64,000 nucleotides of DNA, taken from positions 301,545 to 365,544 of the forward strand of contig NZ_LUKD01000008.1 of NCBI RefSeq assembly GCF_001592745.1, read 5' to 3'. Made by a program: the position numbers and the translations under genes. The notes under the pieces are model-generated. The model ran no database searches. It was not told where the DNA came from and was given only the letters and a program-made list of their open reading frames with translations. Below, piece by piece: positions 10,106 to 23,385 of the stretch. This DNA is from Bdellovibrio bacteriovorus (GTDB lineage Bacteria > Bdellovibrionota > Bdellovibrionia > Bdellovibrionales > Bdellovibrionaceae). Position 1 is the first letter of the stretch, and each line of letters starts with the position of its first letter.

Positions 10106-12034
10106 ATGTCATTCATGTCAGCGCGTCGATACCGCTATTTTGCGATGTTTGGGGTTGCAATTGCAGGCCTTTCTTTTTTATTCACAAACTGCGCGCGCGA
10201 CAGTTTCGCCATCATCGAGCCTTCATCAAAAGCTCAAGCTAGCGAAGGGGAAGTGATTCCCGAAGATCCAGCAGCGGAGTCGGTAAAAATGATTCCTTGC
10301 TCGCAAACACAGTTCGAGTTCCCTTTATCAACCCACTGGTCGAATGAAAAAGGAGACGTCGTCGAAGGTGCTGCGGATACATTGCAAACAAGTGAACCTA
10401 ACAAGGTCGGCACTCGTCGTATGTACAATTATGGTTTCATCCCAGACTATGATCACTATATCGGTACGGACTACGACCCTTATCGCTATCAAGACGCTGA
10501 TTTTAGGTCATTCAGTAACAATCTTTGCCAAAAGACGGGCGTCGCTTTGGAAGTGCGCCGTCCTAGTTCCTTTTCAAACTGGAGTATCGCAAAAAAGAAA
10601 ATCGTCGAGGGTCGAGGTTCGGTGCAGATGATTTATGCTTTACGCATAAGTGGAGCGTTGCTGAATGTCTTCTTACCACCTAATTGGAAAAGCAGTGCAA
10701 AGCGAGGAACCTATCCACTTGTTGTTACGGGCTCCTACGACCTGAAGCAGTCCTTCACGTCTGAAATCCCTGAAGTCGTTTCCAGGACGTGGGCCGAATC
10801 CAAAGTTCCTGTCATCGGAGTTCTTTGGAACGGCGGTGGAGGATTAAACTCTCGAACGGTGAACACTAAGGCGCGAGCTCAGTTTAACGACATCGTTCAA
10901 AATTTAGCAGATCACTTTGGCGCAGATCCTTATCGCATAATTGCGACCGGAACTTCGCGTGGTGGCGCTACGGCGATGGCCATGGCCTCGAATCCAGAAA
11001 GGTACCCTTATAAAGTCGTGGGAGCGTTTGTCTCAGTTCCCCCCGCGGACTTTGGCTTTTTGGCAGAGCTGACGGGCGCAACGGTTCCCTTTCTTATGCA
11101 AGCGGCCGAATGGACGATCGGGCTTTTAGATACTTGGAAAAAAGACTTCCGCTATCCAAATCTTGGAAACAAGATGACAGGTTACACGCGCAATGAAGCT
11201 CACACACACATCCTAGTGGGGTCGAAAGATCGCGCGACGATGGATGCGAATTTAAGTTTAACGAGTCCACGCTTTGTGAATGCTTTGAAGAGTTCCGGAA
11301 CGCAAGTGTATTTGGTCATTGGCTCACATGATTTCATTGTGGGGTGGGCGGATCAATATCGTTATGCACGTATTTTGCGAAATGCGGGAATTCCGATGGA
11401 GTTAAGTGTGAACTACCTTTCCGGTCACGGCGCTGTTGATACTGGAATGGATCCCGCAAACTTATCAAGAGTCATGAAACTTGTCGCCACTCGAAGCACA
11501 GTTTCGTTGATTCAAACCGGAAGAACGACTTATCGGCGTAATGATTATCTTCAAAAGAAGATGGTCGTCACTTCAGGGCAAGCCTTCACGATGGAAGTCC
11601 CAAGAATCGTCACACCAAGTGTTGAAGGCCATCTTATCATGACGGGTTTGCCGGGCACTCAGATAGAGTACGACGGTGTATTTTCAACAACGGCGCAAGG
11701 GCCCACATCTCCATTCGGTCTTCAAAAAGCCACTCTAAACTCAGAGGGACTTTTAATAACAAAGTTGGAGCTGGAAGCTGGTTTTTATAGAGTGCAGTCT
11801 GTGCGCATCTTAAAACCGGGCCAATCGAAATGGCAAAGTTTGGATTTAAAGCAAGGGACTACAAGCTTAGAACGAGGCACTCTGACTGTCGAAGTCCGCG
11901 ATGTAGATCCTCATCCTGACACCACAGCCGGTGAAATTGCTGACGCTTTAACCAGAACTTATTTAGGAGCCGGTGGAGTTTCTGGCACCAACGGAAATCC
12001 AAATCTTACTTACGGCATAGTTGAAACAAACTAG
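10106..12034 (+). CDS. alpha/beta-hydrolase-type lipoprotein, paralogue 1
   Basis: 642 residues. A hydrophobic N terminus ends F-L-F-T-N-C (Cys29), a lipobox with Asn where Gly/Ala/Ser is usual. A catalytic-type core follows: G-T-S-R-G-G (GxSxG nucleophile elbow, Ser about 285), G-S-H-D-F (candidate acid, about 408) and S-G-H-G (candidate His, about 437), plus W-N-G-G-G-G near 240 as a possible oxyanion region. This is the order of an alpha/beta-hydrolase esterase, peptidase or PHB-depolymerase-like enzyme. A beta-rich C-terminal domain of about 150 residues has no assignment. AAGGGG lies five bases before the ATG. Its close paralogue is at 17880. The substrate is unknown. Confidence 0.75.
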   Translation: MSFMSARRYRYFAMFGVAIAGLSFLFTNCARDSFAIIEPSSKAQASEGEVIPEDPAAESVKMIPCSQTQFEFPLSTHWSNEKGDVVEGAADTLQTSEPNKVGTRRMYNYGFIPDYDHYIGTDYDPYRYQDADFRSFSNNLCQKTGVALEVRRPSSFSNWSIAKKKIVEGRGSVQMIYALRISGALLNVFLPPNWKSSAKRGTYPLVVTGSYDLKQSFTSEIPEVVSRTWAESKVPVIGVLWNGGGGLNSRTVNTKARAQFNDIVQNLADHFGADPYRIIATGTSRGGATAMAMASNPERYPYKVVGAFVSVPPADFGFLAELTGATVPFLMQAAEWTIGLLDTWKKDFRYPNLGNKMTGYTRNEAHTHILVGSKDRATMDANLSLTSPRFVNALKSSGTQVYLVIGSHDFIVGWADQYRYARILRNAGIPMELSVNYLSGHGAVDTGMDPANLSRVMKLVATRSTVSLIQTGRTTYRRNDYLQKKMVVTSGQAFTMEVPRIVTPSVEGHLIMTGLPGTQIEYDGVFSTTAQGPTSPFGLQKATLNSEGLLITKLELEAGFYRVQSVRILKPGQSKWQSLDLKQGTTSLERGTLTVEVRDVDPHPDTTAGEIADALTRTYLGAGGVSGTNGNPNLTYGIVETN

Positions 12035-13179
12035 GGAAGGTCCAAGCGTTTCTTGATGGCTTCGACGGCGTAAGCGTTTCGGCTCAAGATGGCGAAGTCC
12101 AATAGGGTTTGCTTGGTCTGCTTCGTGCGGAAAGTTCTTAGTTCGTCTTTCGTAATAGAACTGATCAAAAGATCGACGACCATATCATCAAAGATGTGCA
12201 CGGTTTCACCTGAAGATGTTTTGTAAGAATCAATATAGGAAAAAATCGCATACTCAAGCGCGGTCATGTAGATCGGAAGCGAATCCTGATAGATGAAGAC
12301 CGGAAAGTTTTCCGTCGCCGCCGAATACAGCAGAAGAGACTCGATCTTGTCCAAGTAGTATCTGCTATCTAAATCGGTTCTTAATGTCGCTAAAGCATGA
12401 ATGCGTTTGCCGATAGCAAAGGCCAACGGACTATCTGAAGAGTTCACAAAAATTACGGGGCGATAAAGCTGCTTGGCTACATAGAAGCGATCTTTCAAGT
12501 AGGAGCAGTGTGGTTCGCTGGCGATATTTGGCCAACGCTGAAGTAGGATTGAAATCCAGTCAAACTTCCAATTGTCCAGCTCTTCAAAAAAAGCGGCATC
12601 ACAAGTTGTGATCTTCTTCATGATATAGTCGTCAAACGTGCGTCGATGAAGAAGGTCTGGATATTTCGTTAAGAAAAACCAAATTCTTTGGGAGTAGTAG
12701 TAATCCTGATCTTGCACGCCTAAAAGCAAAAGATACTCATGAAGGATCAATTGCTCCTTCATAGGCTGATTCAATCGTTCCCATTTCGCAAGAGAGATCA
12801 TTAGCCTTTTGGGTGTTTCGTTAGGATAGCTAATAGCGGTTTTCTCGACGCCATCAAGGTAAAGCGGTTGGGCGCTGAAATCGATCACGAGATCAAACTC
12901 CTGCATCCCTTTTTTAATTTCAGCCAGTTTTTTTAAGCCCAAAAGATCGCGGGAAATTTCATCTGAAAATCCGATAAGCGTGCTGCGAGTAGCGGCGATC
13001 AGATTGATCACGTCGATTTCATTGAAATCTCCACCGAAGCCTTCCTTCCATTGCGGAGTTTCTTCAGAACTTCGAGCTGCGTCAGCAAAGTTCAGGCGAA
13101 TCGAGTGAGATCCACCATGCGTAGCGAAAGCCTGGCAAGAGATTGCGAAGAGCAACGTGATACAAATCTTTTGAATCAT
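12031..13179 (-). CDS. secreted protein with HE-x-x-L motif, partner of TIGR02147 regulator
   Basis: 382 residues with a signal peptide (about 1-19, C-Q-A-F-A). The central L-I-L-H-E-Y-L-L-L-L-G segment (about residue 147) resembles half a zincin helix but lacks the second His. The C-terminal L-L-D-F-A-I-L-S-R-N-A-Y-A-V-E-A-I resembles one ankyrin-type repeat. Its ATG overlaps the stop of the upstream TIGR02147 gene by four bases (ATGA), so it is co-translated with the regulator. It ends four bases inside the convergent hydrolase gene. A similar H-E helix occurs in the secreted protein at 14019. No enzymatic role can be claimed. Confidence 0.7.
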   Translation of the reverse strand: MIQKICITLLFAISCQAFATHGGSHSIRLNFADAARSSEETPQWKEGFGGDFNEIDVINLIAATRSTLIGFSDEISRDLLGLKKLAEIKKGMQEFDLVIDFSAQPLYLDGVEKTAISYPNETPKRLMISLAKWERLNQPMKEQLILHEYLLLLGVQDQDYYYSQRIWFFLTKYPDLLHRRTFDDYIMKKITTCDAAFFEELDNWKFDWISILLQRWPNIASEPHCSYLKDRFYVAKQLYRPVIFVNSSDSPLAFAIGKRIHALATLRTDLDSRYYLDKIESLLLYSAATENFPVFIYQDSLPIYMTALEYAIFSYIDSYKTSSGETVHIFDDMVVDLLISSITKDELRTFRTKQTKQTLLDFAILSRNAYAVEAIKKRLDLP

Positions 13180-14009
13180 AGAACATCTACCTTCTTAGTT
13201 ACCGGAAAAAACGAAATAGAAAGTTTATAAACGGAATCCTTTTTTTCTGACTCTTCTTGAAGAAGAGTGGCAAAAGCTCTTTGAAAGGTGACGATACCTT
13301 GCTTAGCTTTTTCGATTTGATTTTTACTTACCGCCATCGTCATTGAAGACTGAAGACGTTCTTCAACGGGAATGTCATCAAGAGCATCTAACGCCAGATT
13401 CAAGATCTGTTTTTGTAGATCACGGCGAGCATCGGCAGTGCCATTGGGAGTCCCGTTAGAAACATGGTCACTGTTATCTTTCCATTTGCCGTCGTCGGCT
13501 TTTACAAGCATGTCTAATCTAAAAAGACGATCCACGGCTTCTTGTGTCTCGTTGGCACTGAGTCCTAAACGTGTTTGGATCCAAGCGACATCCGATTGAA
13601 AATCGGCCAGACGTGTGAGTTCTAAAATGGCATAGTGATACCAGTCGGCCATCACACGGAATTGATCCAGCGATAAACTTAAAAATTCAACCTGCTTCTC
13701 TACGCGCTCCATCCATTGGCCTTGCTTTTCAATTTCGCGCAAGAAGAAGTCGCGACGCTTAAGATGCTGAACGATGGTATTAGGCAATTTCAAGACAGTG
13801 ATAAAGTGTTCGAATTTATCTTCACTGATCCCGATCTGACCATTCAAGATTTTTGAAAGATGGGAAGGGTTGATTTCTAAAGCCCGTGCGAAAGCTCTTA
13901 ATGAATAGCGCGGGTTCACCTGACAGCGACGCTGCAGTTCTTTTTGTAAGGCCTCGCGCATGGAATTAGGTAGATCGTTCGTAGAGAGTTCCTGTGTCTT
14001 CAAGTCCAT
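13176..14009 (-). CDS. TIGR02147 family DNA-binding regulator (DUF4423)
   Basis: 277 residues. The N-terminal 80 hold an XRE-like helix-turn-helix (Y-S-L-R-A-F-A-R-A-L-E-I-N-P-S-H-L-S-K-I-L-N-G). The rest is the DUF4423 domain, recognisable by W-Y-H-Y-A-I-L-E-L, W-I-Q-T-R-L-G-L-S and the two-step winged-helix-like spacing. This matches the TIGR02147 family, known mainly from Fibrobacter and Bdellovibrio. It is the third gene of a four-gene operon (15306 to 12031) and overlaps its secreted partner by four bases. Nine bases separate it from the preceding secreted-protein gene. Regulation of the partner gene is an inference from position only. Confidence 0.85.
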   Translation of the reverse strand: MDLKTQELSTNDLPNSMREALQKELQRRCQVNPRYSLRAFARALEINPSHLSKILNGQIGISEDKFEHFITVLKLPNTIVQHLKRRDFFLREIEKQGQWMERVEKQVEFLSLSLDQFRVMADWYHYAILELTRLADFQSDVAWIQTRLGLSANETQEAVDRLFRLDMLVKADDGKWKDNSDHVSNGTPNGTADARRDLQKQILNLALDALDDIPVEERLQSSMTMAVSKNQIEKAKQGIVTFQRAFATLLQEESEKKDSVYKLSISFFPVTKKVDVL

Positions 14010-14018
14010 GTAAAAAAC

Positions 14019-14618
14019 CTATTTAAAAAGAATTTGCGCCACTAAACGTCGAACGTCTTCAGCGGTTGGAGGGTTTTGTTTTTCGAGTTCCAGATAGATG
14101 TATGCGATTTCATGAAAAATCAGCACAGCTCGCTGTTCGATACTAAGTGGGTAAAAAGCTGGTGTTGTGCAGATTCGGTAACTGTTGCGAGCAGGATCAA
14201 AGAAGTTGATAGCCGCCAGTTTAAAATCCGTGATTTTATTCTGCGCTTGGGCCTCACGTAAAACGCGCATCGTTTCATGAAAAGTATAAGACGTTTCTGC
14301 CTGTGTGAAATCCGAAGCCGTGCAGTCTCCGAATTGAATAGATGTGTAAATGTCCATCGCCACAACAGGGTAACGAAGTCTAAAAATATACTCGGTGATT
14401 TTCGCGTGAAGAAGTTCGGCTTTGGAATAACGTGGTAGAACCTCTATTTTAGATTGCTGTTCAAACACGTCTTGAGCGAACCAAAGGCCTTGAGTCTGAA
14501 CGGCAAAGCCTCCGTTACCGCGAATGAAGATCGCTTGCGCCGACTGGGGGACCCACAGCAAAATGAAGAACAGAGTCGGAATGCTACGACCAAGGAAAGA
14601 CTTGAACATTGATTTCAT
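14019..14618 (-). CDS. secreted protein, GNGG/HE-type, partner of TIGR02147 regulator
   Basis: 199 residues from the ATG at 14618, which has an AAGAAAGAAG purine tract ahead and begins a signal peptide (about 1-29, Q-S-A-Q-A). The mature protein starts with R-G-N-G-G and contains an I-F-H-E-I-A-Y helix near the C terminus, recalling the H-E-Y-L-L segment of the protein at 12031. A longer frame begins with TTG at 14645. The gene overlaps the end of the upstream regulator by 35 bases, so the two are likely coupled. It belongs to a group of small secreted Bdellovibrio-type proteins with no known function, to the best of my recognition. Confidence 0.65.
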   Translation of the reverse strand: MKSMFKSFLGRSIPTLFFILLWVPQSAQAIFIRGNGGFAVQTQGLWFAQDVFEQQSKIEVLPRYSKAELLHAKITEYIFRLRYPVVAMDIYTSIQFGDCTASDFTQAETSYTFHETMRVLREAQAQNKITDFKLAAINFFDPARNSYRICTTPAFYPLSIEQRAVLIFHEIAYIYLELEKQNPPTAEDVRRLVAQILFK

Positions 14619-15306
14619 AGACTTCTTTCTTTTCTCCGGCTTCAAGAAAACGCGCGGTTTTCTCTACAAATTTCAAAACTCGTTTTTTCACCAAAGGTAA
14701 CTTCTTAGGATCAATACAAACACTTACCGAGCATACATCGCGTTTTTCCACGGGCACGGTGTCCAATTGAGAAATAATTCGGCTCAATGATTTTTTGTGG
14801 GAAGCACGCAGGGCTTCGGAAGGAACATCCAAAGTTGTTATAACGTGTTCATGATGTATGACGACTTTTTTATCAACAACTTCGATCAGTCCGACGGATT
14901 TCAGGTTGTGCAGGATTTTATCGACCTTATCTTTAGAGATTTTTAGTTTTTCCGCAATCCAGTCCGGTTTCAGCACGAAGTCGGTTGCTGTGGTCAGGGC
15001 CAGAAAAGCAAAGTGTATGGGGTCGGATATGATCTCAAAGCGTTCGGAGGAAAGACGGTGAGCTTTAGATGCTTCCCAGCTTTCCGGAGACTGGAAGGCT
15101 TCGGCTTGTTTGTCAGGAAGATTTAAGTTTGCCAGGATTTTTTTAGCCGTTTTTTCGGTGCACATTCTTCGACCGGAAAGATAGTCGTTCAGTTGCCCGA
15201 TAGAAACGCCACAGTGCTTCGCAAAAGCCCTTTTAGAATAGCGCTCGTTGCGGCTTTGGCGCTCCTTTAAAAGTTTTTTGAGGAACTGCGGGAACTGTTT
15301 TCTCAC
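14584..15306 (-). CDS. TIGR02147 family DNA-binding regulator (DUF4423), first copy
   Basis: 240 residues. The N-terminal helix-turn-helix reads Y-S-K-R-A-F-A-K-H-C-G-V-S-I-G-Q-L-N-D-Y-L-S-G-R, and a DUF4423-like body follows (H-F-A-F-L-A-L-T-T-A-T-D-F, W-I-A-E-K-L-K-I-S). It starts with GTG, six bases after AAGGAGA. It is the first gene of the operon regulator-secreted-regulator-secreted on the minus strand, and a paralogue of the protein at 13176. The 340-base upstream region, shared with the divergent pseudopilin gene, probably holds its promoter and binding site. Confidence 0.85.
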   Translation of the reverse strand: MRKQFPQFLKKLLKERQSRNERYSKRAFAKHCGVSIGQLNDYLSGRRMCTEKTAKKILANLNLPDKQAEAFQSPESWEASKAHRLSSERFEIISDPIHFAFLALTTATDFVLKPDWIAEKLKISKDKVDKILHNLKSVGLIEVVDKKVVIHHEHVITTLDVPSEALRASHKKSLSRIISQLDTVPVEKRDVCSVSVCIDPKKLPLVKKRVLKFVEKTARFLEAGEKKEVYEINVQVFPWS

Positions 15307-15646: not shown

Positions 15647-17047
15647 ATGTTTAGAATCACTCGTCTTTTAGACCAAAAGGGAATGAGCCTTGTTGAGGCC
15701 CTCGTAGGGATCAGCATGATCGGTGTCGTTGCGGCGTCGGCGGCAACCCTTATGGTGAATGTCACCGATTCCCATGCGGTTGCTAATGATAAGGTTTCCT
15801 TAACGAATATTTCTAGCTCCCTGATGAATGTGATTATGAACGAGGCGGCTTGGTCGGTGACTAAGACCCGCAATAGTTCGATGGCGTGTTCTCGGACGGT
15901 GCCTTCGAGCTGCGCTTCTGGACATAAATCGAAAGTGTCTCTTTTTAATTCAGAGGGTAAGCAATTAACTCATTTAAATAATCCCGATTGGGGATTTTAC
16001 TCCAATGGTCAACCTTGCAGTACATATGGAAGTAACGGCTGCAACTTCAAAGCGGAAATCAATTGGGTGGTAAAATGCAGCAACACGCAAAGCTGTCTTT
16101 ATCCCGTTGAAGAAGTCTCCATAAAATTTTCTTATGCCGGAACACGTTCTATCAATACAGCTCTTTATGACATTCATGCTCTAAGCCGTAGCAGTCATGC
16201 GATGAACAGCTCTCCATTTTCAGTTTGTGCAGTCAAAGGAATGTCTTTCGTGGGTTATGGTCGCAGCATCGCAAGCGCAACAGGCGGTACCTACACGGCG
16301 GATCAGCACGGTTGTATTTCCAGTCTTGCCTTTCAAGGAGCTCGAGGAAGTCAGGGACCTCAAGGCCCTCGAGGACCCGCAGGGATCAAAGGTAAAGATG
16401 GCGTGGCTTACTATTCTGGAAGTCCGCCTGCAACGGGAGGATCTTGTGCTGGCGGGACACTGACTCTTCATTCGCCTGACAAAAAGAACAAGTGTGTTTT
16501 CAGCTATTCCTCTGCGGCTTACGGTGAAAGTACGACAGTGAAGTTGGTCGGCTCCACTTTTGGTTCCGGTCCAACTGTCGATTACTGGGCAGATTGTCGC
16601 ACAGATGGAACTTGGAACTATCGCGCTCTTTGCCCTAATGCGAACGCGATGACCTGTGTTCAGGGAAGTCAGGATGTGAAATCTCCGAATGGAAAGAACA
16701 CATGTCGCTTTGATTGGCCGATGGGATCCTCTGGAGATGTGCACAAAGTTTCTGGTACTAACGGTGGTTCGGGTTCGGCGGTATGTCCTCAAGATTCAGG
16801 ACACTGGACTCTTTCATTCAAGTGTCCTGACGATCCGAAAAAAGCGGGTATAACATGCCCGGCGGGACAAGAATCCCTTCCATCTGCGAGTGGCGACGCA
16901 AATAAACACTGTGTGTGGTCGTTTAACGAGAGTGCTCCCAACAAAACGGTGACCGCTAAGCAGTACAATAAAAATGCCAGTGGTCATTTAAGTGCTTACT
17001 GTAACGACAAAGGGCAATGGGTCAATGTGCAAGCAAGATGTGATTAG
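15647..17047 (+). CDS. type IV pilin-like protein with collagen-like stalk and three Cys repeats
   Basis: 466 residues. The N terminus has a prepilin peptidase site (K-G, then M-S-L-V-E-A-L-V, Glu at +5), followed by a hydrophobic helix, so it should be processed and assembled or inserted like a pseudopilin. Residues about 30-225 form a disulfide-containing globular part. A collagen-like stretch of seven Gly-X-Y triplets lies at about 229-250. The C-terminal 200 residues are three tandem units of about 60-65 residues, each with C-x-G...[KN]-C-x-[FW]...C...G-x-W...C spacing, reminiscent of sushi-like modules. The next gene, 15 bases on, encodes a shorter homologue. Surface display or adhesion is inferred. 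Confidence 0.78.
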   Translation: MFRITRLLDQKGMSLVEALVGISMIGVVAASAATLMVNVTDSHAVANDKVSLTNISSSLMNVIMNEAAWSVTKTRNSSMACSRTVPSSCASGHKSKVSLFNSEGKQLTHLNNPDWGFYSNGQPCSTYGSNGCNFKAEINWVVKCSNTQSCLYPVEEVSIKFSYAGTRSINTALYDIHALSRSSHAMNSSPFSVCAVKGMSFVGYGRSIASATGGTYTADQHGCISSLAFQGARGSQGPQGPRGPAGIKGKDGVAYYSGSPPATGGSCAGGTLTLHSPDKKNKCVFSYSSAAYGESTTVKLVGSTFGSGPTVDYWADCRTDGTWNYRALCPNANAMTCVQGSQDVKSPNGKNTCRFDWPMGSSGDVHKVSGTNGGSGSAVCPQDSGHWTLSFKCPDDPKKAGITCPAGQESLPSASGDANKHCVWSFNESAPNKTVTAKQYNKNASGHLSAYCNDKGQWVNVQARCD

Positions 17048-17062: not shown

Positions 17063-17848
17063 ATGAAGCTGTTATTAAATTCAAAAGGGTTCGGCATTGT
17101 GAATGTCTTGATGGCAGCCGGTTTGGTTTCCATGACGGCGCTCTCGGTGGCTTCGGTTCTTTCAAAGCAAAGTAAGGATCAATCGGAATTCATGCTCAAA
17201 ACTCAAGTGACTGAGATCCGTCGTTCCTTGCTTTCGGCCATCGCTTCGGATTCGGCGTGGCAGGAAACTTTGACACGAAATGCAGTGATGCGATGTCTTT
17301 CACCGCACCAAAAATATTGCGGCCCTAATCAGACGGAAACGGCCGATATCATTCTCTACGATGCTAGCGGCCAGGTGTTTTACGATGGAACGAAAACCAC
17401 AGGTGGCTTCCGTATCGATGGCCTACCCTGCAATACTTACTCGGCTTCAGGCAATGATAATTGCCCGGTAAAAGCTTCCTTGAAATGGAGAGCAGCTTGT
17501 GCAACCGGTGACTGCTCGCAAATTGAAAACTTCATCAGCCTTTCGTTCGTGTATAGTCCTTCGAGTAAGGAAAAAAAATTTCCATTCAACGCTCGTAATT
17601 ACGGCGTTGAAGAAGTAAGTCGTATTAAAATTTCTGCTTCAGAATCTCCGGTTTTGGAGTGTGCAAGAAAATCGTCATTTTTTATTGGTGAAGGACAGTC
17701 CTTCAATGGGTACGTAGCGGACACGACAGGATGTGTACCATATGTTGCTTTTCAAGGGGCTAAGGGAGCCACAGGAGTCGCCGGGATGGCGGGTCCTCAA
17801 GGTGTCCCTGGAGCCAAAGGGGCCGATGCACATTGCTCGACTCCGTAA
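17063..17848 (+). CDS. pilin-like protein with collagen-like C terminus, no Glu5
   Basis: 261 residues. The N terminus is K-G then F-G-I-V-N-V-L-M-A-A-G; the prepilin cleavage site is present but the usual Glu at +5 is Asn. The middle domain matches the upstream protein (paired cysteines, L-P-C-N-T-Y-S...C-P-V-K-A-S-L-K-W, then C-V-P-Y-V-A-F-Q-G-A-K-G). It ends in eight Gly-X-Y triplets and a final Cys without the Cys-repeat modules. GAGGAAGAG precedes the ATG. It is the second gene of a two-gene unit with 15647, and the paralogue hydrolase gene follows 31 bases after the stop. It may be a minor pseudopilin partner of its neighbour. Confidence 0.75.
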   Translation: MKLLLNSKGFGIVNVLMAAGLVSMTALSVASVLSKQSKDQSEFMLKTQVTEIRRSLLSAIASDSAWQETLTRNAVMRCLSPHQKYCGPNQTETADIILYDASGQVFYDGTKTTGGFRIDGLPCNTYSASGNDNCPVKASLKWRAACATGDCSQIENFISLSFVYSPSSKEKKFPFNARNYGVEEVSRIKISASESPVLECARKSSFFIGEGQSFNGYVADTTGCVPYVAFQGAKGATGVAGMAGPQGVPGAKGADAHCSTP

Positions 17849-17879: not shown

Positions 17880-19778
17880 ATGGCCGAAGGAAGTTTTGCC
17901 AAAAGGCGCAAGCTATTGTCACTGACGTTGCTCGTAGGTGTCGGGACCTCTATATTCTATACGAATTGTTCAAACTCTGGATTTACGACAACAGCGTCGT
18001 TAGAAGACTCGCTGCAATCCGCATCGACCTCGGCTTCATGCAATCAAGCTGTGCGAAATTTTCCACTGCCTACGCATTGGTCGAACACGGTGCTTGATAT
18101 TGTGGAAGGAGCTTCGGACACTTTGCAAATCAATGAAAGTGATCCGTTGAAAACTCGCCGCATTTACAATTACGGTTTTTTACCTACGGTCAATGCTTAT
18201 GTGGGAACTTCTTTTGACTTATTCCGCATGGACGACAATGACTTTAACAACTGGGCCGCAGAGCTTTGTCGTAACAATGGTTTCCCCATTGATCTGGTGA
18301 AGCCGGGTTCGTATTCAGATTGGGTTGTCGCAAAAAAAAGCTTGAAGTCGAATAAACAATCTGTGCAGCTGCTTTATGCTTTAAGAAAAGGAACATCCTT
18401 AGTAAACGTGTTTCTTCCTCCTGAGTGGAAAAGCTATGCAGCAAAAGGAACTTATCCCGTCTTAGCTGGAGGCTCTTACGACATCAGCAGTTCTATTCGT
18501 GGAGATACGGGTCCTCTTGTCGCGGCACAGATGAAGCTTTGGAAAGAAAAGAAAAAGCCTTTCATCGTCATTCAATGGAACGGCGGTGGTGGTCGCGCTT
18601 CGATCACCATGAATCCGAAATCTCGAGATGACTTTAATAAAATCGTTCAAGATTTGGCAGAAAACTTTGGGGCGGACGCTCAGCGCATTGTCACGGTGGG
18701 TGGTTCTCGAGGTGGAGCGGCGGCTTTAGCCGTGGCTTCAAATCCAGAAAAAAATCCTTATCGTGTGGTTGCCACATTGGCGGGTGTTCCGGTCACAGAC
18801 ATTGTTGAATACACCGAGCTGATGGGCTCAACCGTGGCGATGACATTAGGGATGACTGAGTACTCTTTGGGTCTTATGGATATATGGAAAAAGAATTTTT
18901 CTTATCCAGTGGCAAACAACGGTTTAACGGGCATGAATCGTTCTCAAGCGTATTTGCATGTGGTCACAGGAAACTCTGACGCCAACTACGTTCGCAATAA
19001 TTTAAATTTAAATAGCTCGCGATTTTTGAATGCTTTAAAAGCTGCGGGTACCCGCGTGCACTTAGAGATCAGCTCTCACGATGTTTTCATTCCTTATGTG
19101 TCGCAATTAAAATACGCCAAGGCTTTAGAAAAAGCGGGAATTCCCACCGAATTGAAGGTCAATTATTTGGCGGGCCACTGGATCAGTCCGGAATTTAATT
19201 CTGTGTCGTCGCTGATGAATGTGATGGAGAACACCATTGATCGCAGATACTCCGCGATCTTTAACACCGGAACTAAAACTTATTTTAAAAATGAATGTGG
19301 GCAGGGGCTGAGGCAGATCTCAGGACCGATTATGACATTTGAAGTTCCTCGCTTCACAAGTCCCAATATCGATGGCCACTGGCTGGTGACGGGAGAGCCC
19401 GGCGCGGTCATCGAGTTTGATGGAGTTTACCGTGAAACTGAAACCAGTCCTGTGTTAGGAAGTTTTGGTACGCAGACCGCGACGCTGAATTCCGATGGTG
19501 TTTTTATTTATAAATACCAATTGGATCCCGCCGTTTATGAAATCAAAAAAGTCCGAATGAAAAAGAAAGATAGCAATGTCTGGAAGGACATCAGCCTCGG
19601 TTGCACAAGCACGAGCATGAACAGTGGGGCCCTTTGGATTGAGGCGCTTCCGACAGAGCCTTCGCAAGACGATACGGCCGCTCGAGTTGCTGATCGTATC
19701 ATGCAAGGTTATTTGGGACCGGGATACGTAAAAGGTATCAACGGCTTTCCCAATGTGACTTATGGAATTGCGGAATAA
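17880..19778 (+). CDS. alpha/beta-hydrolase-type lipoprotein, paralogue 2
   Basis: 632 residues, aligned end to end with the protein at 10106 by shared blocks: P-L-[SP]-T-H-W-S-N, V-E-G-A-[AS]-D-T-L-Q, N-Y-G-F, V-F-L-P-P, W-N-G-G-G-G, the nucleophile elbow G-G-S-R-G-G (Ser about 281), S-S-H-D-V, G-H-W and the C-terminal N-G-x-P-N-[LV]-T-Y-G-I. The lipobox is again unusual (F-Y-T-N-C, Cys30). GGGGGAAG precedes the ATG. It lies 31 bases after the second pseudopilin, so it is probably co-transcribed with the pilin pair, which ties the hydrolase family to that surface system. Confidence 0.75.
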   Translation: MAEGSFAKRRKLLSLTLLVGVGTSIFYTNCSNSGFTTTASLEDSLQSASTSASCNQAVRNFPLPTHWSNTVLDIVEGASDTLQINESDPLKTRRIYNYGFLPTVNAYVGTSFDLFRMDDNDFNNWAAELCRNNGFPIDLVKPGSYSDWVVAKKSLKSNKQSVQLLYALRKGTSLVNVFLPPEWKSYAAKGTYPVLAGGSYDISSSIRGDTGPLVAAQMKLWKEKKKPFIVIQWNGGGGRASITMNPKSRDDFNKIVQDLAENFGADAQRIVTVGGSRGGAAALAVASNPEKNPYRVVATLAGVPVTDIVEYTELMGSTVAMTLGMTEYSLGLMDIWKKNFSYPVANNGLTGMNRSQAYLHVVTGNSDANYVRNNLNLNSSRFLNALKAAGTRVHLEISSHDVFIPYVSQLKYAKALEKAGIPTELKVNYLAGHWISPEFNSVSSLMNVMENTIDRRYSAIFNTGTKTYFKNECGQGLRQISGPIMTFEVPRFTSPNIDGHWLVTGEPGAVIEFDGVYRETETSPVLGSFGTQTATLNSDGVFIYKYQLDPAVYEIKKVRMKKKDSNVWKDISLGCTSTSMNSGALWIEALPTEPSQDDTAARVADRIMQGYLGPGYVKGINGFPNVTYGIAE

Positions 19779-20912: not shown

Positions 20913-21188
20913 ATGAAGGATAGAAGACAGTCTTCTATTGAAAAATCAGTCCTCATAATGGCGGTGTTGCAAATGCTGCCGGCTTGTACTCTTCAAGCAA
21001 ACATCACCGACCTTCAGACTGTAGCCACTCCAAGTGTAGGTAGCTTAAAAGCCGCTCCTTTATTGGTTCACGGTCAGACCGTCAGTATGGGTAGCGGCTA
21101 CGTGATTCGTGGTTCGTTTGGTGAAATTTCAGAGCGTCAACAATTACCAGCGAGTGAGTTTGCAATTGACGGAGTATCGAATGAATAG
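20913..21188 (+). CDS. small lipoprotein heading the fibre operon
   Basis: 91 residues with a lipobox-like M-L-P-A-C at Cys25 after a hydrophobic stretch. The mature part is about 66 residues with no recognised domain. TTGGAGAA lies before the ATG. Its stop TAG at 21186 overlaps the fibre gene ATG at 21181 by eight bases, so the two are translationally coupled. A role as membrane anchor or assembly factor of the fibre is inferred from this coupling only. Confidence 0.6.
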   Translation: MKDRRQSSIEKSVLIMAVLQMLPACTLQANITDLQTVATPSVGSLKAAPLLVHGQTVSMGSGYVIRGSFGEISERQQLPASEFAIDGVSNE

Positions 21189-23385
21189 ATTTCTCCTGTC
21201 CCTACTCTTATTGATGGCGTTTGAAGTTGAAGCTCAGGTGAACAACGCAATCTCTTTCCATGCCATCGTTAAGAATTCTTTTGGGGAAGTCTTTACTCGC
21301 ACGGGTCTAAGTGTAAATGCAAAAATCTTAACAGCTAATAATTGTATTTTAAGGGAAGAGCAGTTTAATGGCATTGCCATTACCGATGGCTATCTGAACT
21401 TATGGATCGGTCGAGGCCTTGTTGGTGGTCACGATCCCGGGCTCACGATGAAAGAAACCATGGACAACTCTCATGTGATTTCAAGTGGGCCATCTCAACC
21501 CGGGGGCTTGGTTTGCCTTGATGGCACCGGAAATGTTGATGGCGGAGTCACTTCGTTCAACCCTGCCGTGAGCGGTACGAAAAGAAAGTTTCGTCTAGCC
21601 GTTACAATTGACGGCCAAAATTTATTTGCAGATTTCGATATGGGCACGACGGCTTACGCTTTGAATGCGGAAAGCTTGCAGGGTAAATCGCCTGCAGACT
21701 TTATCATGAGCAACAGCGCTCAAGGTGTAACACAAAATAATATCGAAAGCATCTTTAGTCGCTTCACCAAACTGGATGCGATTTTGGGACGCTTTGATGC
21801 GACCGGGGTGAACTTAGGCGCGAACATCACCGGAAATGCGGCGACCGCGACAACGGCAACAGTCGCAGATTCAATTGCTGGCGGTCTTAACGGTCTCTTA
21901 CCGAATCAAACAGGCAAAGCCGGACTTTATTTGCGCACGGACGGAACAAATGTGAGCTGGGAAGCTGTTGCTGGCGGTAGTGGCAGCTTATCGAGCGTGG
22001 GATTGAATTTGCCAAATATTTTTTCAGTTTCAGGAAGTCCACTGACTGCAGATGGGTCCATCGTGGCTTCTCTTGTCAGTCAAAATGCAAGTTATGTTCT
22101 TGCCGCTCCGAATGCCTCTGCGGGAGTTCCCACCTTTAGGCCTTTGACGGTGAGTGATATCAGCAATGCGGGCAGCGCCGCTCTTTATCATGTTTCTGTG
22201 ACAGGCGATGCCGGAATAACAGAGCTTGTAAAGGGTGATGACTCTCGTTTAACAAATGCACGCCCTATCCCGGATAACACTATCACGACGGCAAAAATTC
22301 AGGACGGCGCGGTTACCAATGACAAGCTGGCCACCGGCATTAGTGCCGGAAAAATTTCTGGTTTAGGCGGATTGGCAACTAAGGACTTCGTAGATCTTTC
22401 AACAAGTGATGTTACGGGAACGTTAACAGCATCAAGAATGCCAGCGCTCACAGGGGATGTCGTATCAACCGCAGGATCCGTGGCTACGGTCCTTGGCAAC
22501 AATGTCGTGACAAGTGCTAAGTTCAGACAAAGTATTGCCCGATCCGTCGTGGGTGTCAGTGGGAATGCGACGGCCAACGTCACTGATATTCAAGGAACGG
22601 CCAATCAAGTTTTGCGCGTTGATAGTCTAGGAACTACATTGGATTTTGGAGCTGTGAATTTAGCTTCGACCAGCGCCGTGACAGGGGCCCTGCCAATCGC
22701 AAACGGCGGCACCGGTGCAACGACGGCCGCTTTGGCAAGAACAGCCCTGAGTGCCGCGGTAAGTGGGACAAACGGGGATATCACAAGCTTGACGGCAGTG
22801 ACGTCTTTGAGTAGTTCGAGCGCGCTCTCATTAACTTCAGCGTCGAATACAAATATCAATATCACACCGGGTGGCACAGGGCGGGTGATTCTTAGTGGCA
22901 ACGTAGGTTTGGGTGTGCCATCGCCAACGGAAAAACTTGAAGTGAGTGGCAATGTTAAAGCTACTAGTTTTATTTCAACTTCGGACAGTCGTTTAAAGAC
23001 GAGTGTGGAAACATTGAGAGGCCTTGATACGATTCTAAGACTTCGCGGAGTCCACTTCCGATGGATTTCAGATCTGACGCCCGAGTTGGGATTGATTGCT
23101 CAAGAAGTCGAACAAGTGGCGCCGGAACTGGTGGTCACGGACTCGCGCGGATTTAAAGCAGTTAAGTATTCCAACATTGTTGCGCCTTTAATTGAGTCTA
23201 CCAAAGAGCTGTACGGTCTTTGTGTTGATACTTCAAATAAAGTGAAAGCGCAAAGTCGTGGTATTGCCACGGTCGAAACTCAGGTGCAGAAATTAGAAAA
23301 TAAAATTCGCAAGCTGGATGCTGAAAACGCTGAGCTTAGAAGCCGCTTGGAAGCTTTGGAGAAGGCTGTTTATGAAGCTCGTTAG
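21181..23385 (+). CDS. tail-fibre-like adhesin with S74 chaperone domain (mosaic adhesive trimer type)
   Basis: 734 residues. A signal peptide (1-19) is followed by a head domain (about 20-180), then a long low-complexity shaft rich in Thr, Ala, Ser, Asn and Gly with phage-fibre motifs such as I-A-N-G-G-T-G-A-T-T. Near the C terminus lies an intramolecular-chaperone/peptidase S74 domain: S-D-S-R-L-K (Ser601 and Lys606 keep the Ser/Lys pair of self-cleaving members), L-R-G-V-x-F-x-W, L-G-L-I-A-Q-E-V-E-x-V-x-P-E-L-V. A heptad coiled coil ends it (about 690-734). The layout fits the trimeric prey-recognition fibres described in Bdellovibrio. It overlaps the genes on both sides. Confidence 0.85.
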   Translation: MNRFLLSLLLLMAFEVEAQVNNAISFHAIVKNSFGEVFTRTGLSVNAKILTANNCILREEQFNGIAITDGYLNLWIGRGLVGGHDPGLTMKETMDNSHVISSGPSQPGGLVCLDGTGNVDGGVTSFNPAVSGTKRKFRLAVTIDGQNLFADFDMGTTAYALNAESLQGKSPADFIMSNSAQGVTQNNIESIFSRFTKLDAILGRFDATGVNLGANITGNAATATTATVADSIAGGLNGLLPNQTGKAGLYLRTDGTNVSWEAVAGGSGSLSSVGLNLPNIFSVSGSPLTADGSIVASLVSQNASYVLAAPNASAGVPTFRPLTVSDISNAGSAALYHVSVTGDAGITELVKGDDSRLTNARPIPDNTITTAKIQDGAVTNDKLATGISAGKISGLGGLATKDFVDLSTSDVTGTLTASRMPALTGDVVSTAGSVATVLGNNVVTSAKFRQSIARSVVGVSGNATANVTDIQGTANQVLRVDSLGTTLDFGAVNLASTSAVTGALPIANGGTGATTAALARTALSAAVSGTNGDITSLTAVTSLSSSSALSLTSASNTNINITPGGTGRVILSGNVGLGVPSPTEKLEVSGNVKATSFISTSDSRLKTSVETLRGLDTILRLRGVHFRWISDLTPELGLIAQEVEQVAPELVVTDSRGFKAVKYSNIVAPLIESTKELYGLCVDTSNKVKAQSRGIATVETQVQKLENKIRKLDAENAELRSRLEALEKAVYEAR

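Follow-up and report, generated by a model that had tools for sequence, protein, structure and literature searches.

A tandem pair of prepilins with collagen-like stalks of equal length and an exchangeable head in Bdellovibrio bacteriovorus: a candidate pilus tip complex

The stretch of Bdellovibrio bacteriovorus DNA analysed in this study (64,000 nucleotides, referred to as the window) contains two adjoining prepilin genes, whose products are termed chain A and chain B (Table 1). A first-pass annotation had described only chain A and overlooked that it is encoded by the first gene of a tandem pair of paralogues which carry collagen-like segments of equal length. The start of chain B lies 15 bp after the stop of chain A and has a plausible ribosome-binding site, GAGGAAGAG, ahead of it. 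The leader of chain A reads MFRITRLLDQKG^MSLVEALVGISMIG, with a glutamate at position 5 of the mature protein (Glu5). The prepilin cleavage site which had been claimed for this chain was confirmed as KG^MSLVE, with Pfam N_methyl being the best family match (E=7e-4), even if its 19.5 bits stay below the curated cut-off of 21.2. Both chains start with a class III leader and a prepilin peptidase site (KG^FGIVN in B), the N-terminus being of the GFxxxE type, and genome-wide one prepilin peptidase match was found.

Table 1. Features of the prepilin pair and of its surroundings, with positions counted from the first nucleotide of the window.
Feature	Position	Strand	Basis
Second TIGR02147/DUF4423 regulator	13176..14009	-	family profiles
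Divergent TIGR02147/DUF4423 regulator adjoining the pair	14584..15306	-	family profiles
Chain A, modular prepilin, head-bearing, Glu5 kept, 466 aa	15647..17047	+	ORF list, sequence, family profiles
Prepilin leader of A, residues 1-12, cut after Gly12 (QKG^MSLVE)	15647..15682	+	sequence; N_methyl E=7e-4
Pilin core of A (residues 13-186), a long helix (15-64) at the N-terminus followed by a beta sheet	15683..16204	+	AlphaFold2; GspI-like structural matches
Short Cys-bounded segment distal to the pilin core and ahead of the stalk, residues 190-229 (C194...C223)	16214..16333	+	AlphaFold2, sequence
Collagen-like stalk of A, 8 Gly-X-Y triplets, residues 231-254	16337..16408	+	regular expression
Head module 1, four Cys	16445..16636	+	sequence, head model
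Head module 2, four Cys	16655..16828	+	sequence, head model, structural matches
Head module 3, four Cys, modelled as sushi-like	16856..17044	+	sequence, head model, structural matches
Chain B, paralogous prepilin of 261 aa, with no head and without Glu5 (KG^FGIVN)	17063..17848	+	ORF list, sequence
Collagen-like stalk of B, 8 Gly-X-Y triplets, residues 232-255	17756..17827	+	regular expression
Lone C-terminal Cys258 of B, three residues past the stalk, kept in 6/6 B chains	17834..17836	+	sequence
Alpha/beta hydrolase similar to Peptidase_S9, probably a lipoprotein, starting 31 bp past chain B	17880..19778	+	family profiles, BLASTP
Fibre protein of the mosaic adhesive trimer (MAT) type, close to the pair	21109..23385	+	NCBIfam Bdello_MAT_N E=1.9e-22

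A full-length AlphaFold2 model of chain A, based on an alignment of 47 sequences in which the head was poorly aligned, exhibits mean pLDDT values of 85-98 for the blocks of residues 21-180 and contains the long N-terminal helix (residues 15-64) and the antiparallel sheet (strands within 93-180) of a pilin fold. The top structural matches of this core are two Xcp pseudopilin chains, of the GspI (XcpV) type as judged by length and entry (Z 5.7, rmsd 4.5, 109 aligned; Z 5.1, rmsd 3.6, 86 aligned), followed by an unrelated row at Z 3.5, with a weak match to CofB at Z 3.0. The core is accordingly predicted to be a canonical pilin which is closest to the GspI-type minor pseudopilins. Foldseek yielded no confident match for either of the AlphaFold2 models (core and head), the second structural aligner being more informative, and a PDB sequence search with the core of A returned generic pilin helices and collagens only. 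The cysteine-bounded piece between core and stalk also precedes the collagen on a divergent core in two other genomes (G027 and G088).

The head had been described as three modules with a four-cysteine spacing, and these are indeed present. The cysteines are located at residues 267/283/317/329, 337/353/380/393 and 404/422/452/465, which corresponds to a spacing of x15-17, x26-33 and x11-12, and each module closes with a turn of the G-x-W or G-W-like kind (DGTW, SGHW and KGQW), located between cysteines three and four. As the three-module heads of other genomes show a similar cysteine spacing, the repeats are considered real. In the full-length model the pLDDT of the head was under 50. The head was then predicted alone (5 sequences), which gave a mean pLDDT of 80.6 and three separate five-stranded beta units, as the assumption of three individually folding repeats had required. 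Its structural matches are mostly complement control (sushi) domains, the best one being the sushi-like part of the EphA2 ectodomain (Z 6.0, rmsd 1.7, 52 aligned; others about Z 3-4.6). As modest Z values of this size can reflect a common arrangement, "sushi-like" is a fair description of the modelled units and not a claim of membership. Pfam Sushi did not match the head up to E=1, the spacing of the cysteines departs from the one usual for sushi domains, and a PDB sequence search with the head gave nothing credible.

Chain B shares the A-type core, including all eight core cysteines, and ends six residues after its last triplet, in AHCSTP. A second pair is encoded 195 kb away in the same genome (locus L102). 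Its A chain has 625 residues and its B chain is again headless. Across the A chains about one core residue in three is shared, their heads being unrelated.

For the collagen-like segment of chain A seven triplets had been reported; the segment itself was confirmed, its length was not, as a regular expression finds eight uninterrupted Gly-X-Y triplets in A and the same number in B. Among 20,000 shuffled versions of chain A none contained a run of at least seven triplets. Pfam Collagen matched the pair below its cut-off (14.8 bits for A and 19.8 bits for its partner vs 27.2), the repeat being far shorter than the model. Within 369 genomes of the phylum the triplet counts of the partners are equal in all five collagen-bearing pairs, namely 8/8 in the window, 10/10 at the second locus of the same genome, 9/9 in G021, 10/10 in G038 and 11/11 in G135, and three tandem prepilins of G088 contain 6/6/6 triplets. 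If the chains of these six clusters are re-paired in all 720 possible ways, equal counts throughout result only twice. No glycine falls out of register in 16 chains of 6-11 triplets. Between partners most X and Y residues differ (identical at 2/16 to 7/18 positions), on which ground gene conversion or recent copying as the origin of the equal stalk lengths was set aside. As the counts are equal despite these different X and Y residues, the simplest reason would be that the partners intertwine in one common rod. Eight triplets are short, which counts against a collagen rod. A single collagen-bearing prepilin per locus is found in G011 and in G027, which indicates that such a prepilin can do without a partner; the two may be homotrimers. 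In the genome of the window, the other Pfam Collagen matches fall on a protein of Gly-Asn-Asn repeats and on a Gly-rich one that resembles a lipoprotein, neither of them a prepilin. At L045 (G000:C5, ~472.3-473.0 kb, minus strand) a secreted-looking protein which is not a prepilin scores as collagen with a very long Gly-Asn-Asn array almost devoid of proline.

The partners also differ systematically in Glu5, which is present in every A chain and absent in every B chain of the collagen pairs (5/5), so that each of these pairs combines co-encoded pilins of which one lacks Glu5, the pattern of tip complexes of the GspHIJK or PilABC type. GspK and PilA of S. sanguinis, both members of tip complexes, are likewise without Glu5 (PMC9934059, PMC5207764). 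Exactly one acid-less member was counted in 26 of the 38 fully scored prepilin pairs or triples of the order (about 18 expected), and the acid-less chains of these 38 clusters are shorter (median 276 vs 380 aa, P=5e-5); as the clusters are related by descent, these regularities are tendencies and not independent trials. All six B chains contain eight core cysteines and exactly one after the stalk, and the number of cysteines is even in all five A chains, the count for the head of the G135 A chain being provisional as this chain runs off its contig. The odd cysteine of B, which A cannot pair, suggests a B-B disulphide and hence one A with two B. Three-gene clusters mostly comprise two chains with Glu5 and one without it. 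Cysteine parity thus argues for 1A:2B and the Glu5 pattern of the three-gene clusters for 2A:1B, and we are leaning to A:B2.

Further hints at trimers come from two clusters of three prepilins. In G088 (L088 1766-5347) one chain ends in a Peptidase_S74 domain (E=1.1e-9) and the other two prepilins show an SDxxxK motif at the equivalent place, and in G351 (L162 2219-8001) Peptidase_S74 was found in the chain tested (E=7.4e-17). Peptidase_S74 is a self-cleaving trimerisation chaperone which also occurs in MAT fibres (PMC10769870). These findings favour trimers. As an observation in its own right, the clusters at L088 and L162 look like pilin-based fibres with a phage-type trimerisation chaperone.

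We propose, with a probability of roughly 60%, that the pair forms a minor-pilin tip complex with a heterotrimeric collagen stalk and a swappable sushi-like head, which probably serves the binding of prey or of another surface. A and B would be minor pilins of one type IV filament and would jointly build a modular complex at its tip. Once the prepilin peptidase has removed the leaders, the pilin parts of both would come to lie at or near the distal end of the filament, where the equal Gly-X-Y segments of three chains could wind into a short heterotrimeric collagen-like rod of ~24 residues. This rod would hold the three tandem sushi-like domains of A off the pilus for binding of a target, which would most likely be located on prey or on another surface. 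Two B chains could clamp the end of the rod by their disulphide, giving one A and two B, and the chassis would be kept while heads are exchanged. The layout of the first-pass annotation, a surface fibre of pilin base, rigid stalk and sushi-like head, is retained in this proposal as a reading, and what is given up is the idea of a stand-alone fibre; chain A is one of two co-encoded prepilins, and its pilin part, which had been regarded as a pilin-type anchor, is better understood as belonging to a pilus tip complex than as anchoring the protein in the membrane.

It appears less likely that A and B form separate homotrimeric rods (A3 and B3) or act alone, their equal lengths being inherited from a duplicated ancestor. 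The single collagen-bearing prepilins of G011 and G027 would fit such rods, as would the minor pilins CofB and TcpB, which form homotrimers (PMC8179133). However, stalk length varies from 8 to 11 triplets between pairs and always does so in both partners, whose sequences are far apart, and a B3 rod would not show any head and would contain three lone cysteines which cannot all pair.

The three-module head of the window is also found at the C-terminus of two prepilins from another genus (L094 and L099), which have a diverged core and are joined to their head via Ser/Pro/Asn-rich linkers. This would be compatible with the idea that the collagen segments are flexible linkers without a triple helix and that the pair consists of an ordinary modular pilin and a headless partner, as would a close paralogue of the collagen-bearing prepilin of G027 with a Ser-rich linker instead of the repeat (L087 1105-2136) and the frequency of short linkers in modular pilins (PMC8179133). 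Nevertheless, a linker would need neither a perfect glycine register, as seen in the 16 chains, nor a length matched to that of a partner, and we consider this explanation to be rather improbable.

The search for the module order in the phylum, which had been recommended, yielded relatives with the same order, between which the head turned out to be exchanged. Two modules of the head type of the window occur on a lipoprotein-like protein adjoining one of the two prepilins from the other genus, and related prepilins of the order carry heads with RCC1, Calx-beta, thrombospondin type 1, laminin-G-like and bacterial Ig domains or with a weak fibrinogen-C match. The first four of these heads are found on same-core prepilins at L100 1718-3655, L095 2852-5095, L093 3003-4625 and L137 4578-5813. 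The prepilins at L096 1053-3374 and at L101 1178-3493 and 3474-4745 belong to three-gene clusters with two Glu5-less members each; this group comprises prepilins in which a MIDAS-like DxSxS motif was read by eye (the one of L096 without a Pfam hit) and one with the weak fibrinogen-C match (E=4.7e-4, below the cut-off). A prepilin in a further cluster of three (L098 1491-3146, minus strand) has a long Gly-rich C-terminus without any Pfam hit, which resembles the Gly-rich tail-tip adhesins of phages. A cysteine repeat of about 45 residues (CSFNGQ...GSYxxxxC) is shared by a lipoprotein-like protein which adjoins the G021 pair (L103 7918-9351) and by the head of the second A chain of the window's own genome (P0003, residues ~315-425).

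The extra C-terminal domain is not specific to pilus biology, as the three-module head of the window was also found on a hydrolase of G083, which is homologous to the hydrolase encoded after chain B (BLASTP E=2e-31, 28% over 321 columns). The fusion of head and hydrolase in G083 and their adjacency in the window suggest that both might address the same target. A type II secretion-like pseudopilus which pushes or holds the co-encoded hydrolase instead of acting as an adhesin would agree with this fusion, with the short distance between chain B and the hydrolase gene and with a core nearest to GspI-type pseudopilins, but it is the least probable of the alternatives, as the hydrolase itself looks like a lipoprotein, secretion genes were not seen in the locus and the other heads on the core (RCC1, TSP1, laminin G and Calx-beta) are typical binding domains. 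A second Peptidase_S9-like hydrolase of 642 aa is encoded 3.6 kb ahead of the pair (10106-12034, plus strand).

The nearest MAT gene is located 2.6-3.4 kb from both pairs of this genome and 2.0 kb from the G011 gene, the chance of such a proximity being estimated at ~5% each (23 MAT genes in 3.76 Mb). A distance of 17 kb separates the G021 pair from its closest MAT gene, and in G038, G135, G088 and G027 there is none nearby. The closeness of these predation fibre genes supports a role in prey contact and is not a proof of it. TIGR02147/DUF4423 regulators flank both pairs of this genome as well as the G021 pair. Between the two regulators of the window lies a gene for a secreted-looking protein of 208 aa without family match (14019-14645, minus strand), and the second pair of the genome is adjoined by a similar set of a regulator and a small secreted protein. 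A PADLOC search gave no match.

Among known systems, the GspHIJK tip complex resembles the pair in that it comprises several minor pilins, one of them without Glu5, and the predicted fold of A is nearest to its GspI-type member XcpV. We do not know of exchangeable surface heads or collagen in GspHIJK. The pair in turn is a two-gene set beside which other Gsp or Pil genes were not seen. Complexes in which several minor pilins form a tip have been described (PMC9934059), and modular pilins are an established class with many architectures (PMC8179133). In S. sanguinis (PMC8179133, PMC9934059) PilB and PilC, like A, are pilins with a grafted C-terminal binding domain, and PilA, like B, is encoded alongside them and lacks both Glu5 and an extra module, the three having been proposed to form a tip complex. 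Unlike for A and B, neither a collagen segment nor a stalk shared between subunits has been described for PilABC. The type IVb minor pilins CofB and TcpB present a binder on a trimeric distal extension, as proposed for A (PMC8179133), but this extension is encoded by one gene and consists of a beta-repeat and a beta-sandwich without collagen, and both proteins keep Glu5 (PMC5207764), unlike B.

The MAT fibres of Bdellovibrio (PMC10769870) are similar to the pair in their conserved base, trimeric rod and exchangeable tip domains. Some of them contain the S74 chaperone, as do relatives of A and B, and MAT genes neighbour the pairs in the genome of the window. They differ in having a signal peptide and a Bdello_MAT_N domain and no pilin; among the NCBIfam profiles, Bdello_MAT_N did not match A or B, and collagen and pilin are not mentioned in the MAT paper (PMC10769870). 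Exchangeable pilus tips are already known from a predator, as the Kil/Tad pili of Myxococcus have interchangeable minor-pilin tips which expose variable domains (PMC12075869). These are Tad-type pilins whose tip genes are, by sequence, almost confined to Myxococcales, and collagen is not mentioned for them (PMC12075869). The main text of the 2021 paper on modular pilins does not name a collagen or sushi architecture (PMC8179133). A search of the open-licence literature did not bring up any pilin with a collagen stalk, let alone a stalk of matched length that separately encoded pilins share, although single pilin-collagen proteins may be listed somewhere. At first the combination seen in chain A had not been recognised as a described family, and the analysis likewise turned up no known family in which the parts follow this order.

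The pair is of more interest than the single protein and would represent a plausible and testable mode of prey recognition. A more general scheme, to which we would give about even odds, is that two or three separately encoded pilins form one heterotrimeric collagen rod, a length-matched stalk borne by the pilus and fitted with a plug-in head, the two-gene form being clamped at its end by cysteines. Such a rod would be the pilin counterpart of MAT fibres, with head cassettes passing among pilins, lipoproteins and hydrolases throughout the predatory Bdellovibrionota. If so, this would be a bacterial collagen heterotrimer from separate genes, resting on pilin bases which would define the register of its chains. 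To our knowledge, no bacterial collagen heterotrimer of this kind is known from the literature. A predator could then change the specificity of its pilus by swapping the head while base and stalk are kept.

With regard to its distribution, the core profile matches in 66 of the 141 genomes of the order, mostly in groups of two or three prepilin genes. Versions with collagen are rare, clear cases being found in 7 of the 369 genomes of the phylum, and the pair is missing from most genomes of the genus. A scan of named genomes with B-type cores found two contigs only, both of which belong to the Bdellovibrionales MAG SKYF01.
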